DNA of 64,000 nucleotides from Halostella limicola (GTDB lineage Archaea; Halobacteriota; Halobacteria; Halobacteriales; Natronoarchaeaceae): assembly GCF_003675875.1 (NCBI RefSeq), contig NZ_RCDI01000003.1, positions 186,001-250,000 on the forward strand. The letters run 5' to 3'. Position numbers and translations under genes: made by a program. Below the pieces are notes generated by a model. It was given only the letters and a program-made list of their open reading frames with translations. It had not been told where the DNA came from and made no database searches. Positions 5,643-25,584 of the stretch are shown here, one piece after another. Numbering within the stretch: the first letter of the stretch is position 1; each line of letters starts with the position of its first letter.

Positions 5643-8093
5643 TTACTCGTCGCTTCCCGGAATGACGTCGACGCTCGCGACCGTGTCGCCCTCGACGACG
5701 TCCATCACGGTGACGCCCATCGTGTTCCGCCCGACCGAGGAGACGTCGTTCGCGCGGGTGCGCATGATCTGGCCCCGGTCGCTCATGGCGACGAGGTCGT
5801 CTGCCTCGCCGACGGACTTCACCGAGACGACGCGGCCGTTGCGCTCGCCGGTCTTGATGTCGATGAGGCCCTTGCCGTAACGGGACTGGGTGCGGTACTC
5901 CGACAGCGGCGTGCGCTTCCCGTAGCCGTTCTCGGTGACGGTCAGCAGGGCGCGGTCGTCGCCCTCGTCGGTCGCGACGAGGCCCGCGACCTCGTCGTCG
6001 CCCTCCAGCTTGATCGCGCCGACGCCGCGGGCGTTGCGGCCCATCTCGCGGACCTCCGCCTCGTCGAACCGGATCGTCATGCCGTTCCGCGTGGCGACGA
6101 CGAGGTCCTCGCTGCCGTCGGTCACCGCCACGTCGACGAGCTCGTCGCCGTCCTCTAAGTCCGCGGCGATGATGCCGGTCGAGAGGATGTTCTCGAACTC
6201 CGCGGCGGCGGTGCGCTTGATGTAGCCGTCGCGGGTGACGGTCGTGACGCACTCGTCGGCCTCGAACTCGTCGGTGGCGACGACGGCGGTTATCTCCTCG
6301 CCGTCGTCGAAGTCGATGAGGTTGACCGCGGACTTGCCGCGAGCGGTCCGGCTCATCTCGGGGATCTCGTAGGTCTTCAGGCGGTACACCTGCCCCTGGT
6401 TCGTGAAGCAGAGCAGGTAGTCGTGCGTGTTCGCGCGGAACACCTTCGAGACGCGGTCGCCCTCCTTCACGTCGACGCCGATGATCCCCTTCCCGCCGCG
6501 GTTCTGCGGGTCGAAGCGGTCGAGAGGCATCCGTTTCACGTAGTCGTCCTCGGTGACGACGACGATCACGTCCTCCTCGGGGATGAGGTCCTCGTGGGTG
6601 ACGGTGCCCTCGTCTTCGACGATGCTCGTCTTGCGGTCGTCGGCGTACTCCTCTTTGATCTCGCGGAGCTCCTCTTTGATCACGGCGAGGAGCTCGTCCT
6701 CGTCGCCGAGGATGGTTTCGAGGCGCTCGATGCGCTCCTGGACCTGCTCGTACTCCTCTTTGATCTCGGCGGCCTCCATCGACGTGAGGCTGCCGAGCTG
6801 CATCCGGACGATGTGGTCGGCCTGGTCCTGCGAGAAGTCGTACGCCTCGATCAGCGCCTCCTTCGCGGCGTCGCGGTCCTCGGCGTCCTGGATCCGGTCG
6901 ACCACGTCGTCGACGTTTTCCAGCGCCGTCAGGCGGCCTTCGAGGATATGCGCGCGGTCCTCGGCCTCGTCGAGGTCGTACTGGCTGCGCCGGCGAACGA
7001 CCTCCTTGCGGTGCGCGACGTACTCCTCGAGGGTCTCCTTCAGCGTCAGGACCCGGGGCTGGCCGTCGACCAGCGCGAGGTTGATGACGCCGAAGGTGGT
7101 TTCGAGGTGGTGTTCGAGCAGCTGGTTCTTCACGACCTCGGCGTTCGCGCCGCGCTTGAGTTCGATGACGACGCGGACGCCGTTGCGGTCGGACTCGTCG
7201 CGCAGGTCGCGGACGCCCTCGATCTTCCCCTCGTTGACGTCCTCGGCGATGCGCTCGACGAGGCGGGCCTTGTTCGCCTGGAAGGGGACCTCCGTGATGA
7301 CGATGCGCTCGTCGTCCTCGACCTCGAACTCGGCGCGGACGCGGACCCGACCGCGACCGGTCGAGTACGCGGAGTAGATGGCGTCGCGGCCGACGATGTT
7401 CGCGCCGGTCGGGAAGTCGGGGCCCTTGACGTGCTCCATCAGGTCGTCGACGTCGCAGTCCGGGTTGTCGATGAGGTGGACAGTCGCGTCGATCACCTCG
7501 CCGAGGTTGTGCGGGGGGATGTTCGTCGACATCCCGACGGCGATGCCCGACGAGCCGTTGACCAGCAGGTTCGGGAACGCCGAGGGCAGCACCTCGGGCT
7601 CCATGAGCCGGTCGTCGTAGTTCGATTGGTAGTCGACGGTGTCCTTCTCGATGTCGGCGAGCAGTTCCTCCGAGATGGGGCTCATCCGGGCTTCCGTGTA
7701 CCGCATTGCGGCCGCGGGGTCGCCGTCCATCGAGCCGAAGTTCCCCTGGCCGTCGACCAGCGGGTAGCGCATCGAGAAGTCCTGGGCCATCCGCGTCAGC
7801 GTGTCGTAGATGGGGCCGTCGCCGTGCGGGTGGTAGTCACCCATCGTCTCGCCCACCACGGACGAGGACTTGCGGTGGCTCGATCCGCTGGTCACGCCCA
7901 TCTCGTGCATCGCGTAGAGGATGCGCCGGTGGACCGGCTTGAGGCCGTCCCGGACGTCCGGCAGGGCGCGGCCGGCGATGACGCTCATCGCGTAGTCGAT
8001 GTAGCTCTGCTCCATCTCGTCCTCGATGCGGACGCGCTCGACGCGCGCCGCGTCGGCGTCTACGTCCGTCGGATCTGGCGATTCCGAACTCAT
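5643..8093 (-). CDS. gyrA: DNA gyrase subunit A
   Basis: 816 residues. With GyrB it introduces negative supercoils at the expense of ATP. The N-terminal breakage-reunion domain carries the catalytic Tyr132 in M-R-Y-T-E-A-R-M. The quinolone-region segment reads [10 protein letters not shown], so the position equal to E. coli Ser83 is Gly93 while Asp87 is kept as Asp97. A coiled-coil segment (about 430-500) follows, then the C-terminal DNA-wrapping beta-pinwheel with the GyrA box Q-N-R-G-G-K-G. The ATG lies one base after the gyrB stop, so the two are co-transcribed. Haloarchaea are known to have a bacterial-type gyrase acquired by ancient transfer. Confidence 0.97.
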
Positions 8094-20755: not shown

Positions 20756-22327
20756 ATGAACGAGGACCTCGCCGCGGCGGTCGACGACGTGCTGGCGACC
20801 GACGCCGAGCGGTTTCAGGAGCGAGTCGACGAGGAGGTCGAGGTCATCGTCGAAGAGCTACGCGACGGCACCTTCGACAACCCGCAGGCCATTCTGGGGC
20901 TGGAGTACGAGTTCTACGCCGTCGCCGACCCGCGCCCGGAGTCCCGGCAGACCCGCTCCGAGCAGGACGCCGGCGACACCTGCGCGCTGATGCGGGTCCC
21001 CCGGCGACTGCTCGAACTCATCGGCTTCGAGAAGGAGCTCGGGCTGCACAACGCGGAGATGACCGTCAGCCCCCAGCCGATGAACTCCCACGGCATCGCC
21101 GCGCAGGAAGAGGAGGTGAAAGCGCGCCTGTCAACCGCGCTGGAGACGGCGGGTGCGGAGGGGATGCGGCTGGTCAGCGACGGGATGTGGACCATCCCGC
21201 CCGCCGGGGAGACGGCCGCGTCGTACCTCACCGACAGCGTCGAGGACCGCGGCGTCCGCATCGCCTCGAACATGAGCGACTCGGTCCGGTACCACGCGAT
21301 GGCGAACACCGACCGGGCGGACGTCGCCGGGATGCGCCTCGACGCCCCGCACGTCACCCTCGACGCGTCGACGGTGATGCCCGAGAGCCTCATCACGTCG
21401 ATCCAGCCCCACTACCAGGTGCCGCAGGCTGTCGACCTCCCCGGCTACTTCCGGTACGCGCTGCGGGTCGCCGGTCCCATCCTCGCGCTCTGCGTCAACT
21501 CGCCGTTCTTCCCGCCGGACCTGTACGACGAGGACGCCGACCCGGAGGCGATCCTCTCGGACGCGTGGATGGAACACCGGATCAGCGTGTTCGAGACGGT
21601 GCTCAACGCCGAGCACGACACGGCCGGGAAGGTGCGGTTCCCCCGGGACATCTCGACCGTCGAGGAGGCCGTCCAGCGGATCGCCGAGGACGACACGTTC
21701 GTCCCGATGCCCGTCGAGAAGGGTGACCGCTTCGACGACAAGTTCGCCCACTTCCGGCTGAAACACGGGACGTTCTGGCGGTGGGTCCGCCCCGTGTTCG
21801 GCGGGCCGGACCGCTCGTCGGCGAACGCGCGCATCGAGTTCCGCCCCGTCGCGGCGCAGCCGACGGTCCGGGACTCCGTCGCCGTGCTCGCTACCTTTGC
21901 AGGCCTCATGGAGAGCCTGCCGCGGCTCGAACACCCCGTCTCCGACATGGACTGGGACGTGGCGCGGGACAACTTCTACGCCGCGATGCGGGACGGCCTC
22001 GACGCGGACCTCCGCTGGATCACCAACGACGGCGAGCCGACGACGGAGTTCGACGCCATGTACGCCGACCTGTTCGACCACGCCGAGGCGGGCCTGCAGG
22101 CCCGCGGGCTGTCGGACGAGGAGGCGGCGAAGTACCTCTGGCCGCTCCGCCAGCGCGCCCGCCACCGGCTGACCCCCGCGGACTGGAAGCACGAGCAGGT
22201 CCGGAAGCGCCTCTACAACGGCGACACCTTCGAGGCAGCCGTCTACGGGATGCAGCGCGAGTACGTCGACCGCCAGCGCGATTCCCTGATCGACGGGAGC
22301 TTCGCCGACTGGGTGGACGACCGCTGA
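20756..22327 (+). CDS. Glutamate-cysteine-ligase-fold (GCS2-like) protein, function unknown
   Basis: 523 residues. The segment I-L-G-L-E50-Y-E52-F-Y-A-V is the metal-binding Glu pair that opens the glutamate-cysteine ligase / carboxylate-amine ligase fold. A later E-L-G-L-H-N-A-E-M-T-V block and the C-terminal N-A-R-I-E-F-R-P-V-A-A-Q-P-T-V-R-D-S (about residues 360-377) match the conserved I-E-x-R and R-P-T-V-x-D positions of the family. It would ligate an amino group to a glutamate-like carboxylate using ATP. Some haloarchaea use gamma-glutamylcysteine as their main thiol and another gene is the known GshA, so this paralogue has no assigned product. It diverges from ligA and precedes cofD. 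Confidence 0.65.
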   Translation: MNEDLAAAVDDVLATDAERFQERVDEEVEVIVEELRDGTFDNPQAILGLEYEFYAVADPRPESRQTRSEQDAGDTCALMRVPRRLLELIGFEKELGLHNAEMTVSPQPMNSHGIAAQEEEVKARLSTALETAGAEGMRLVSDGMWTIPPAGETAASYLTDSVEDRGVRIASNMSDSVRYHAMANTDRADVAGMRLDAPHVTLDASTVMPESLITSIQPHYQVPQAVDLPGYFRYALRVAGPILALCVNSPFFPPDLYDEDADPEAILSDAWMEHRISVFETVLNAEHDTAGKVRFPRDISTVEEAVQRIAEDDTFVPMPVEKGDRFDDKFAHFRLKHGTFWRWVRPVFGGPDRSSANARIEFRPVAAQPTVRDSVAVLATFAGLMESLPRLEHPVSDMDWDVARDNFYAAMRDGLDADLRWITNDGEPTTEFDAMYADLFDHAEAGLQARGLSDEEAAKYLWPLRQRARHRLTPADWKHEQVRKRLYNGDTFEAAVYGMQREYVDRQRDSLIDGSFADWVDDR

Positions 22328-22377: not shown

Positions 22378-23385
22378 ATGGTGACGTTTCTCTCGGGCGG
22401 CACCGGCACGCCGAAGCTCCTCGACGGTGCCGCCGCCGCGTTCTCGCCGGACGACACGACAGTGGTCGCGAACACGGGCGACGACGTCGAACTCGGCGGG
22501 CTGATGGTCTGTCCCGACCTCGACACCCTCCTCTTTCAGGGGGCAGGGATCCTGGACCGGGAAAGCTGGTGGGGGATCGGCGGCGACACGGAGCGCACGC
22601 ACAGCGCGCTCGGCGACATCGCCGGCGCGATGGGCCTCGAAACGGGGCCGCAGTACCTCCCCGACGACCTGCAGACCGCCGGCAGGGACCTGGCCGCGTG
22701 GCGCAGGTTCTCCGGCGTCGCGGAGTTCATGACGATCGGCGACCGCGACCGCGCGGTCCACATCACCCGGACGAGCCTGCTCGACCGGGGGGAGACGCTC
22801 TCCGAGGTGACCGAGACGTTCGCGGACGGGTTCGACCTCTCCGTCGACCTCCTGCCGATGAGCGACGACCCGGTCGCGAGCCTCATCCACACGCCCGACG
22901 GGAAGATGCACTTTCAGGAGTACTGGGTCGCTCGCCGCGGCGAACCCGAGGTCGAGCAGGTGGAGTTCCGCGGCGCGTCGGCGGCCGAGCCCGCGCCGGG
23001 TGTCCTCGACGCGCTGGAGGACGACGTCGTGATCGGCCCGTCGAACCCGGTGACGAGCATCGGACCGATGCTCTCTATCGAGGGCATCGGGGGGAAGCTC
23101 CAGGAGACGACCGTCGTCGCCGTCTCGCCGTTCGTCGAGGACGAGGTGTTCTCAGGCCCCGCCGGGGACCTCATGGAGGCCGTCGGCGGCGAGCCGTCGA
23201 CCGCGGGCCTGACGACGGCGTACCCCTTCGCCGACGCGTTCGTCCTCGACGAGGACGACGGCACGGAGTTCGACCGCCCGGTCGTCCGCACGGACACGGA
23301 GATAAACGGGCGCGAGGACGCCGCCCGGGTCGCGAAGGCGACGGCGAAGGCCCTGGAGGAGGCGAAGGCGACGGAGGTCGCGTAG
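22378..23385 (+). CDS. cofD: 2-phospho-L-lactate transferase (coenzyme F420 synthesis)
   Basis: 335 residues. The N-terminus [17 protein letters not shown] is the CofD nucleotide-binding signature, followed by the V-A-N-T-G-D-D block (about 37-43) and [11 protein letters not shown] (about 220-230). It joins the activated phospholactate/phosphoenolpyruvate donor (GDP-linked) to Fo, giving F420-0. Length is typical. A CACCCGGGTG palindrome lies at 22354-22363, 15 bases before the ATG. Its TAG stop overlaps the GTG start of the next gene (TAGTG at 23383-23387), so this is the head of a coupled operon. Confidence 0.93.
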
Positions 23386-24134
23386 TGTTCTCGCCCCGCG
23401 TCGCCCTGGCGAGCCTCAGCGGCGAGGCCGACGCCGAGTGGGCCCGCGCGGCCGACGAGTTCGCGGGCGCCGCCTTCCTCGGCGGCATCGCGCTGGACGA
23501 GCGCTCCCGCGCGGCCGCCCGCGACATGGTCGAGAGCCGCGACCGGACCGAGTTCCTGCCGCCGGACCCGCTCGCGTTCATCGACGAGCAACTGGCGGCG
23601 CTCGACGACGCGCCGCTGCTGACGGGGTTCAACGTCCGGAGCGCGACCCCGGAACCGGTCCGCGAGGCGGCCGCGGTCTGTGCCGCCCACGACGCCGTCC
23701 TCGAAGTCAACGCCCACTGCCGGCAGGAGGAACTCTGCGCCGCCGGCTGCGGCCAGACGCTCCTGCGCGACACGGACCGGGTCTGCGAGTACGTCCGCGC
23801 GGCGGCGGAGACCGACGCGACGGTGAGCGTGAAAGTCCGCACCGAGGTCGGCGGCGTCGACCTGCCCGAGACCGCTCGCCGGATCGACGAGGCGGGGGCC
23901 GACGTCGTCCACGTGGACGCGATGGACTCCGAGCGCGTCGTCGCCGACGTGGTCGAGGCGACGGACGCGTTCGTGATCGCCAACAACGGCGTGCGCGACC
24001 GGGAGACCGTCGCCGAGTACGTCGAGCACGGCGCGGACGCCGTCAGCGTCGGCCGGCCGAGCGATGACCCGGCGGTGCTGTCGCGCGTCCGCGCGGCTGC
24101 GGACGACCTCCTCGCGCCGGAAGCCCACTCCTAA
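23385..24134 (+). CDS. Dihydrouridine-synthase-like TIM-barrel protein (archaeal MJ0569 type)
   Basis: 249 residues from a GTG that overlaps the cofD stop by one base. The barrel shows G-F-N-V-R-S-A-T (phosphate/flavin side), E-V-N-A-H-C-R-Q-E-E-L-C-A-A-G-C-G with three Cys, then S-V-K-V-R-T-E-V and the FMN-phosphate segment D-A-V-S-V-G-R-P. The V-N-x-x-C core is shared with tRNA-dihydrouridine synthases, and archaeal homologues are usually annotated so. The extra Cys residues and the setting inside a coenzyme operon suggest another flavin-dependent reaction, which is my inference. The start upstream at ATG is not available in frame, supporting GTG. Confidence 0.75.
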   Translation: MFSPRVALASLSGEADAEWARAADEFAGAAFLGGIALDERSRAAARDMVESRDRTEFLPPDPLAFIDEQLAALDDAPLLTGFNVRSATPEPVREAAAVCAAHDAVLEVNAHCRQEELCAAGCGQTLLRDTDRVCEYVRAAAETDATVSVKVRTEVGGVDLPETARRIDEAGADVVHVDAMDSERVVADVVEATDAFVIANNGVRDRETVAEYVEHGADAVSVGRPSDDPAVLSRVRAAADDLLAPEAHS

Positions 24135-24160
24135 GTGGCCGCGGGAGAAAACCCACGGCC

Positions 24161-24994
24161 ATGAGAACGCCGGCGCAGAACGCCGAACTCGCCCTTCTGC
24201 TCGAAGTCGCGGGGACGCCGAAACCGGGCAACGTCGACCGCGAGCGCGAGTACCCGGACCTGCGGTTCGAACACTTCCTTGCGGGCGCAGTGGGCGCCCG
24301 CGACGGCCTCGACGCGGCGGCCGACGGCGCGCCCGTCGGGGAGGCCTTCGAAAGCGCGGTCGAGGGGATGAGCCAGCAGCGCGGCGGCAACACGCAGTTC
24401 GGGGCGCTGCTGCTCCTGACGCCGCTCGTCCGCGCGGCGGAGGACCTCACTCCCGACGCCGTCACCGCGGTCGTCGAGGACACGACGGTCGAGGACGCCG
24501 CGAACTTCTACCGCGCGTTCGACCACGTCGACGTGTTCGCCGGCGACCTGCCGGCGGACGCCGACGCGCTGGACGTGCGCCGCGGGAGCGACGCCGTCCC
24601 CGAAGTGCGCGAACGCGGCCTGACGCTGTACGAGGTGATAGCGGAGAGCGCCGACCGCGACGGCGTCGCCCGCGAGTGGGTCGACGGCTTCGAGCGGACG
24701 TTCCGCGCGGCCGACCGCATCGCCGACGGCGAGGGGCCGGTCCCGGGGCGCGCCGCCGAGACGTTCCTCTGGCTGCTCTCGCGCCGACCGGACACGTTCG
24801 TCGCAAAGCAGCACGGGCCGGAGGCGGCCCGGAGCGTCATGGTCCGCGCGCAGGAGGCGCGGGAGGACGGCCCCCAGCTCGTCGACGCGTTCGCGGAGTC
24901 GCTCGTCGAGTCCGGCGTCAACCCCGGGACGACGGCGGATATCGTCGCCGCCGGCCTGTTCGTCGCGCTCGAACGCGACGGGATCGAGGTATGA
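24161..24994 (+). CDS. CitG/MdcB-type triphosphoribosyl-dephospho-CoA synthase family protein
   Basis: 277 residues. The conserved blocks are A-G-T-P-K-P-G-N-V-D-R (about 17-27), the helical A-R-D-G-L-D segment and the Q-R-G-G-N-T-Q-F-G-A-L-L-L-L-T-P-L block (about 72-88), all of the CitG fold. True CitG makes the prosthetic-group precursor for citrate lyase from ATP and dephospho-CoA. No citrate or malonate lyase subunits are near, so this archaeal subfamily probably attaches or makes a different adenine-derived or ribosyl group. Homologues sit in C1-coenzyme gene sets of methylotrophic bacteria and methanogens, as I recall. It overlaps the next gene by ATGA. Confidence 0.8.
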   Translation: MRTPAQNAELALLLEVAGTPKPGNVDREREYPDLRFEHFLAGAVGARDGLDAAADGAPVGEAFESAVEGMSQQRGGNTQFGALLLLTPLVRAAEDLTPDAVTAVVEDTTVEDAANFYRAFDHVDVFAGDLPADADALDVRRGSDAVPEVRERGLTLYEVIAESADRDGVAREWVDGFERTFRAADRIADGEGPVPGRAAETFLWLLSRRPDTFVAKQHGPEAARSVMVRAQEAREDGPQLVDAFAESLVESGVNPGTTADIVAAGLFVALERDGIEV

Positions 24995-25584
24995 GCGGCG
25001 ACGGCGACTGGCCCGTCGAGCTGCGGGGCGTGACGGAGTCGCTCGTCGCCACGCTCGGCCCGAACGACCGCTGGAACGTCGCCCCGCTCGGCCTCCACGC
25101 CGGCGACCCCGTCACCGCGACGACGTGGGGGAACACCCGTACCCGCCGGAACTTCCGCCGGCAGGGGGGAGGCTACGTCCAGTTCGCGCGCGACCCGCTG
25201 CTGTTCGCCGAGGCCGCGCTCTCCGTTCGCGAGACCGACGCGCCGGTGCTCGACGCCGCGGACGCCTGGGCCGAGGTCGACGCGGAGCGGGTCGACGCGG
25301 GCGAGGACGGCGGCACGCGGTGGGAGGAGTGGGCGCTCCGACCGGTCGACTCGGCAATCGAGCGTACGACCGTGCCGACGACCAACCGCGGCTACTACGC
25401 CGTCGTCGAGGCGACCGTCGCCGCCTCCCGCCTCGGCGTCGACGCCTACGACGCCGACGCCCTGCGGGACCGCCTCGCGTACTTCGAGGAGGTGGTCGAG
25501 ACCTGCGGCGGCGAGCGCGAGCGCGCCGCCATCCGGCGCGTGACGGAACTGTCCGAGTGGAAATCGCAGAACGAATCATTTTAG
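24991..25584 (+). CDS. DUF447 family protein (predicted FMN-binding)
   Basis: 197 residues from the ATG at 24991, which overlaps the TGA of the CitG-like gene. The N-terminal block V-T-E-S-L-V-A-T-L-G-P-N-D-R-W-N-V-A-P-L-G and the later W-G-N-T-R-T-R-R-N-F-R-R-Q-G are typical of DUF447, whose known structures are split-barrel flavin-reductase-like folds. The C-terminal half is helical. The reaction is unknown. Together with the preceding two genes it forms a four-gene unit with cofD, pointing to cofactor metabolism. The promoter of rps17e overlaps its last codons. Confidence 0.8.
   Translation: MSGDGDWPVELRGVTESLVATLGPNDRWNVAPLGLHAGDPVTATTWGNTRTRRNFRRQGGGYVQFARDPLLFAEAALSVRETDAPVLDAADAWAEVDAERVDAGEDGGTRWEEWALRPVDSAIERTTVPTTNRGYYAVVEATVAASRLGVDAYDADALRDRLAYFEEVVETCGGERERAAIRRVTELSEWKSQNESF

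Follow-up and report, generated by a model that had tools for sequence, protein, structure and literature searches.

A citG-like/DUF447 gene pair beside cofD in haloarchaea and its probable place in an MptG-initiated pathway

A co-directional run of four genes, headed by cofD, lies in a 64,000-nt stretch of the Halostella limicola genome (G000, 4.1 Mb; contig NZ_RCDI01000003.1, positions 186001 – 250000; referred to here as the window). The two downstream genes of the run, a citG-like gene and a DUF447 gene, are the main subject of this study, as they appear to belong with MptG, an enzyme encoded elsewhere in the genome, rather than with the F420 gene beside which they are found. The run consists of the following (window coordinates):

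22378 – 23385, plus strand: cofD, the 2-phospho-L-lactate (or phosphoenolpyruvate (PEP)-derived) transferase of coenzyme F420 synthesis (TIGR01819 equivalog).
23385 – 24134, plus strand: Dus-like flavin TIM barrel protein of 249 aa, with a GTG start that overlaps the cofD stop and a catalytic-type Cys in the motif NAHCRQ, lacking a C-terminal RNA-binding domain.
24161 – 24994, plus strand: CitG-like protein (PF01874, 221 bits, full-length match) with the family invariants; proposed ribosyl transferase of an MptG-initiated pathway.
24991 – 25584, plus strand: DUF447 protein (PF04289 and PF20766), a predicted flavin mononucleotide (FMN)-binding split barrel according to comparison of its model with FMN-bound structures; proposed reductase of the same pathway.

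The preliminary description of this locus reported four genes packed head to tail with overlaps, an observation that is real with small corrections. The genes are co-directional, and the overlaps TAGTG (cofD/barrel) and ATGA (citG/DUF447) are present, but the barrel and citG genes are separated by a 26-nt spacer, leaving two of the three junctions overlapping. A strong hairpin, TGGCCGcGGG-AGAAAA-CCCaCGGCCA (-18.8 kcal/mol, nt 24135 – 24164), spans this gap into the first codon of citG, ending at the citG start; no such hairpin was found in 13 other haloarchaeal spacers.

The assignment of CofD is secure by score (TIGR01819, 361 bits against a cut-off of 257). The CitG-like protein shares its fold family and a PKPGNVD motif with the CitG and MdcB triphosphoribosyl-dephospho-CoA synthases and retains family invariants such as K21, G23, D112, D211, PG255-256 and D260, but differs from these enzymes in gene context and falls far below their equivalog models (about 25 bits, with cut-offs near 280). 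Both domains of the DUF447 protein (DUF447_N, PF04289; DUF447_C, PF20766) score above their cut-offs, at 79 and 59.5 bits respectively, and the predicted structure matches the FMN-bound entries 2IML, 2NR4 and 2PTF, from which we infer that the window protein also binds FMN.

All 13 named haloarchaeal loci show the order cofD–barrel–citG–DUF447, usually followed by rps17e, and it recurs in the deep-branching locus L057. Each of the 18 pair-positive haloarchaea sampled has citG next to DUF447, as do 97 of the 111 Halobacteriota genomes with both genes; the recurrence of this adjacency and of the four-gene order argues that the arrangement is not due to chance. A survey of Halobacteria and methanogens, as suggested in the preliminary description, shows that the three genes usually accompany cofD in haloarchaea but do not always do so, which goes part of the way towards what that description named as refuting its proposal. 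The cofD–barrel and citG–DUF447 genes of Natrinema thermotolerans are split by several genes, among them one for an iron transporter; the distance between cofD and the pair is 7 kb in G035 and 3 kb in G041; and Archaeoglobi loci carry cofD without the pair.

The first committed step of methanopterin synthesis is catalysed by MptG, the beta-ribofuranosylaminobenzene 5'-phosphate (RFAP) synthase. Of 213 haloarchaeal genomes, only G008, G053 and G108 are without DUF447; CitG is missing from the same three, and MptG from these and from one draft genome, G309. If genomes are treated as independent, i.e. ignoring phylogeny, the chance of such an overlap between DUF447 and MptG losses is 2.5e-6. Two of the genomes (G008 and G053) belong to one genus, while G108 belongs to another, the other sampled members of which keep the pair. 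In G008 and G053 rps17e directly follows the barrel gene, as though the pair had been cut out (about 81% of the G053 sequence was read, and local absence calls rest on whole-genome searches). The stretch between the barrel gene and rps17e in G108 was considered as a citG/DUF447 remnant and rejected, as by eye it appears to be a different, deoxyhypusine-synthase-like gene without a CitG or DUF447 match. The joint loss cannot be the result of one deletion because MptG is at least 181 kb from citG in all 14 haloarchaea that carry both on one contig; in H. limicola it is on another contig. CofD and Mch, on the other hand, are retained by every one of the 21 haloarchaea tested, the three pair-negative genomes among them. 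Since citG, DUF447 and MptG have been lost together while CofD and Mch stay, DUF447 and CitG go with MptG, and not with F420 or with Mch.

The same association is seen outside the haloarchaea. In a set of 14 control genomes, DUF447 and MptG match the same four (Methanocaldococcus jannaschii, Haloferax volcanii, Sulfolobus acidocaldarius and Methanosarcina acetivorans). CitG is also present in S. acidocaldarius, which therefore has the pair together with MptG, while the Mch search of the control set gave no match in this species, nor was it among the matches of the CofD search, which exceeded the cut-off in three genomes.

Gene neighbourhoods point in the same direction. In two deep-branching Halobacteriota loci (L057 and L065) the order is citG–DUF447–DmrX–PHP–DHPS-like (DHPS, dihydropteroate synthase), and in L057 both the DmrX (TIGR02700, dihydromethanopterin reductase) and the DHPS-like protein (TIGR00284) score above cut-off. 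The DUF447 gene of Azospirillum oryzae has DUF6513 on one side and MfnB on the other, and its cluster also contains genes for formylmethanofuran dehydrogenase and formyltransferase; in Cupriavidus the genes for CitG, a DmrX/AfpA-like flavoprotein, a DHPS-like protein and DUF447 are consecutive. The preliminary description had noted that CitG-like and DUF447 genes occur in C1-coenzyme gene sets, and this is borne out by the bacterial methanopterin and methanofuran clusters, by the DmrX and DHPS-like neighbours in deep Halobacteriota, and by the co-loss with MptG. No publication joining DUF447 or CitG-like genes with methanopterin was found among those searched.

MptG couples para-aminobenzoic acid (pABA) to phosphoribosyl pyrophosphate (PRPP) and releases CO2 (PMC6787355). 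The homologue in haloarchaea scores 171.8 bits to TIGR00144 (cut-off 113.5) and retains the phosphate loops GLGSGTQ and GRGG-SGxG as well as the pABA-binding Arg (R26). Where other MptG proteins have Asp19, the usual haloarchaeal copies in the alignment have Asn; with this substitution the Methanothermobacter enzyme shows an about threefold higher KM for pABA and retains partial activity (PMC6787355). One haloarchaeon (G285; L079, C1:131130-131960) carries, beside the usual divergent copy, a second, methanogen-like MptG of 288 bits in which Asp19 is kept. In family f20 (G069; L096, nt 6343 – 7869, minus strand), a chorismate pyruvate-lyase domain (PF01947) precedes MptG in a single fused protein and would provide the MptG reaction with 4-hydroxybenzoate.

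Members of the methanopterin biosynthesis set of methanogens and methylotrophic bacteria (MptG, TIGR00284/DUF6513 DHPS-like protein, DmrX/DmrB/AfpA, DUF447 and CitG-like protein) that are present in the genome of H. limicola include an MptG homologue, the CitG-like protein and DUF447. In haloarchaea these three are co-inherited and co-lost, and the pair is adjacent as it is in methanogens. We consider it probable that the locus is a co-directional run of separable modules, namely cofD for F420, the Dus-like barrel, and a citG-like/DUF447 pair acting in an MptG-started pathway, and that a part of the side-chain route to methanopterin persists in haloarchaea. The reading of the pair as C1-coenzyme genes is supported as far as pathway membership goes.

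In the pathway envisaged, MptG would condense PRPP and an aromatic acid, with release of CO2, to give a beta-ribofuranosyl-arene 5'-phosphate, a reaction shown for the family and presumed for the haloarchaeal copies. CitG chemistry, in which a phosphorylated ribosyl group is transferred in alpha geometry, would fit the alpha-ribosyl transfer step of methanopterin, for which no assigned enzyme is known. By analogy with that chemistry, the CitG-like protein may transfer a phosphoribosyl-type unit to form an alpha-ribosyl link, which in methanopterin is on the ribitol chain. The DUF447 protein, using FMN, could carry out the reduction of an intermediate, for example an opening of the furanose ring to deoxyribitol. 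Given that haloarchaea lack a DHPS-like protein of the methanopterin type, the likely product is a relative in remodelled or shortened form, which another enzyme may couple to pterin or which may serve uncoupled; it might be a pterin formed via a stand-in DHPS, or an aryl-riboside without pterin. CofD would serve F420, and the barrel protein would be a separate flavin reductase. That nearly all haloarchaea use MptG, the CitG-like protein and DUF447 to make, beside folate, an unrecognised aryl-riboside-derived cofactor related to methanopterin is offered more tentatively, at somewhat short of an even chance.

Several observations weigh against a retained methanopterin-type route. The losses of the pair and of MptG are few, representing at least two events. 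The haloarchaeal MptG is divergent and unlinked to the pair, and remains below the strict RFAP-synthase equivalog NF040726 (179 against 328). Haloarchaea are reported to use tetrahydrofolate, and it has been doubted that HVO_2628, the MptG homologue of Haloferax volcanii, is an RFAP synthase (PMC8305020). The same publication lists HVO_2483 as a predicted riboflavin-pathway protein, a few locus tags from the cofD gene HVO_2479; it may be one of the genes described here. No TIGR00284 DHPS-like protein was found above cut-off in 15 haloarchaea. Two other DHPS proteins exist in haloarchaea. The longer one, with an open frame of about 850 aa, is present wherever it was tested; the second, of about 380 aa (PF00809), is encoded beside MptE and was a candidate for the coupling enzyme. 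This second DHPS is missing in G008 and G053 yet kept under normal constraint, not fast-evolving, in G108, so that a role as the dedicated coupling enzyme is doubtful. MptE is present in all haloarchaea tested. In G008 and G053 (L132 and L131) the second DHPS is replaced by a methyltransferase-like, pterin-binding protein of 285 aa that matches CdhD.

The barrel protein, called MJ0569-type in the preliminary description, scores above the cut-off of PF01207 (34.5 bits against 20.4), but its nearest curated family is TIGR00736 (MJ0144 family), at 110.8 bits with a cut-off of 218.7, and the Dus equivalogs are far away (DusB, 26.8 against 293; DusC, 19.7 against 395). The AlphaFold model (pLDDT 94.5) ends with the barrel at about residue 243, and the nearest solved folds (TM 0.70 – 0.74) are DusC (0.74), dihydropyrimidine dehydrogenase (0.72) and dihydroorotate dehydrogenase. 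With these enzymes it shares the TIM fold, FMN-type motifs and the position of the catalytic Cys: Cys112 aligns with that of DusB and DusC and is invariant, as is the AHCRQ motif, in 10 homologues. Unlike Dus enzymes, it has NAHCRQ in place of the Dus Cys-Pro, and the C-terminal helical tRNA-binding domain is absent from the model (solved Dus chains have about 305 – 315 residues). True tRNA dihydrouridylation is not favoured, considering the missing RNA-binding domain and the scores below equivalog cut-offs. The barrel homologues of methanogens carry a C-terminal methanogenesis-marker-9 domain (TIGR03277), which is absent in the window protein. In methanogen loci (L059, L064 and others) this marker-9-bearing homologue directly precedes citG–DUF447, which may help to place an orphan marker.

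The barrel gene is kept in the three pair-negative genomes and absent from G018, G122 and G285, all DUF447-positive, and can thus be regarded as a third, independent gene. It is also absent from many deep Halobacteriota. An alternative is that the barrel alone goes with cofD and acts in archaea as a dehydro-F420-0 reductase, saturating the enol group that remains after CofC and CofD have used PEP. Such a role is possible because the archaeal enzyme is unknown (PMC6450877), and it would suit a flavin reductase fold with a conserved catalytic Cys position and no RNA-binding domain, the stop-start overlap with cofD, and the retention of cofD–barrel where citG–DUF447 is lost or elsewhere (G035, G041, Natrinema). 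We regard it as unlikely, however, as the barrel gene is wanting in the cofD-bearing G018 as well as in the other genomes just named, adjoins citG–DUF447 and not cofD in methanogens, and archaeal CofC/CofD pairs were found to be specific for 2-phospholactate (PMC8764529).

Alternatively, the CitG-like protein, DUF447 or both could act in riboflavin synthesis, and one of them may be HVO_2483/MJ0699. The listing of HVO_2483 mentioned above and the binding of FMN by DUF447 relatives are in keeping with this, but the bacterial copies of the pair occur in methanopterin and methanofuran clusters, and the pair-negative G053 keeps, along with cofD, a reductase of the archaeal RibD type (165.8 bits to TIGR01508 for a partial sequence), which speaks weakly against it. 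A crude motif search for RibH and RibB gave no match in the 81% of G053 that was read, a weak test. A riboflavin role is quite unlikely in our estimation.

The preliminary description had the genes form one functional unit around cofD, possibly making a cofactor related to F420 or a remodelled C1 carrier. As an F420 unit, the flavin proteins would reduce and the CitG-like protein transfer, all in the making or modification of F420. In favour of this, cofD heads the run, which is what the locus shares with F420 biosynthesis (CofC, CofD, CofE, CofG/H); it is joined head to tail to the other genes in L057 and in nearly every haloarchaeon sampled; and the archaeal dehydro-F420-0 reductase is still missing (PMC6450877). 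Across archaea, however, neither the presence nor the position of the pair or of the barrel is tied to cofD: citG, DUF447 and MptG are lost where cofD is kept, the pair is found away from cofD, S. acidocaldarius has the pair without a match in the cofD search, Archaeoglobi have cofD without the pair, the bacterial pairs reside within methanopterin clusters, and the barrel is independent of both. The single-unit and F420 readings fail, and an F420-related unit is very unlikely; the C1-carrier part of the earlier proposal survives in part, as pathway membership. It is highly improbable that the CitG-like protein is a true triphosphoribosyl-dephospho-CoA synthase for citrate lyase or malonate decarboxylase with DUF447 as an unrelated passenger, since in spite of the full-length PF01874 match it has the low equivalog scores given above, the locus has no lyase or decarboxylase genes, and the gene adjoins DUF447 so widely and was lost together with it and MptG.

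The run is flanked by a GCS2-like open reading frame upstream of cofD, and by rps17e and asd downstream. The former (nt 20756 – 22327, 523 aa) has a weak match to glutamate-cysteine ligase family 2 and no Pfam match, and a frame of this type also adjoins cofD in G118 (L050).

If the citG-like/DUF447 pair does act with MptG as proposed, the accepted view of a complete switch of haloarchaea from methanopterin to folate would be incomplete, and a core pathway, conserved in about 98% of the haloarchaeal genomes sampled, would lead to an unknown cofactor. The archaeal CitG-like group and DUF447, both orphan families, would be placed on missing steps of methanopterin synthesis, and these steps could then be tested in Haloferax volcanii, an aerobe that is genetically tractable, and not in methanogens alone.

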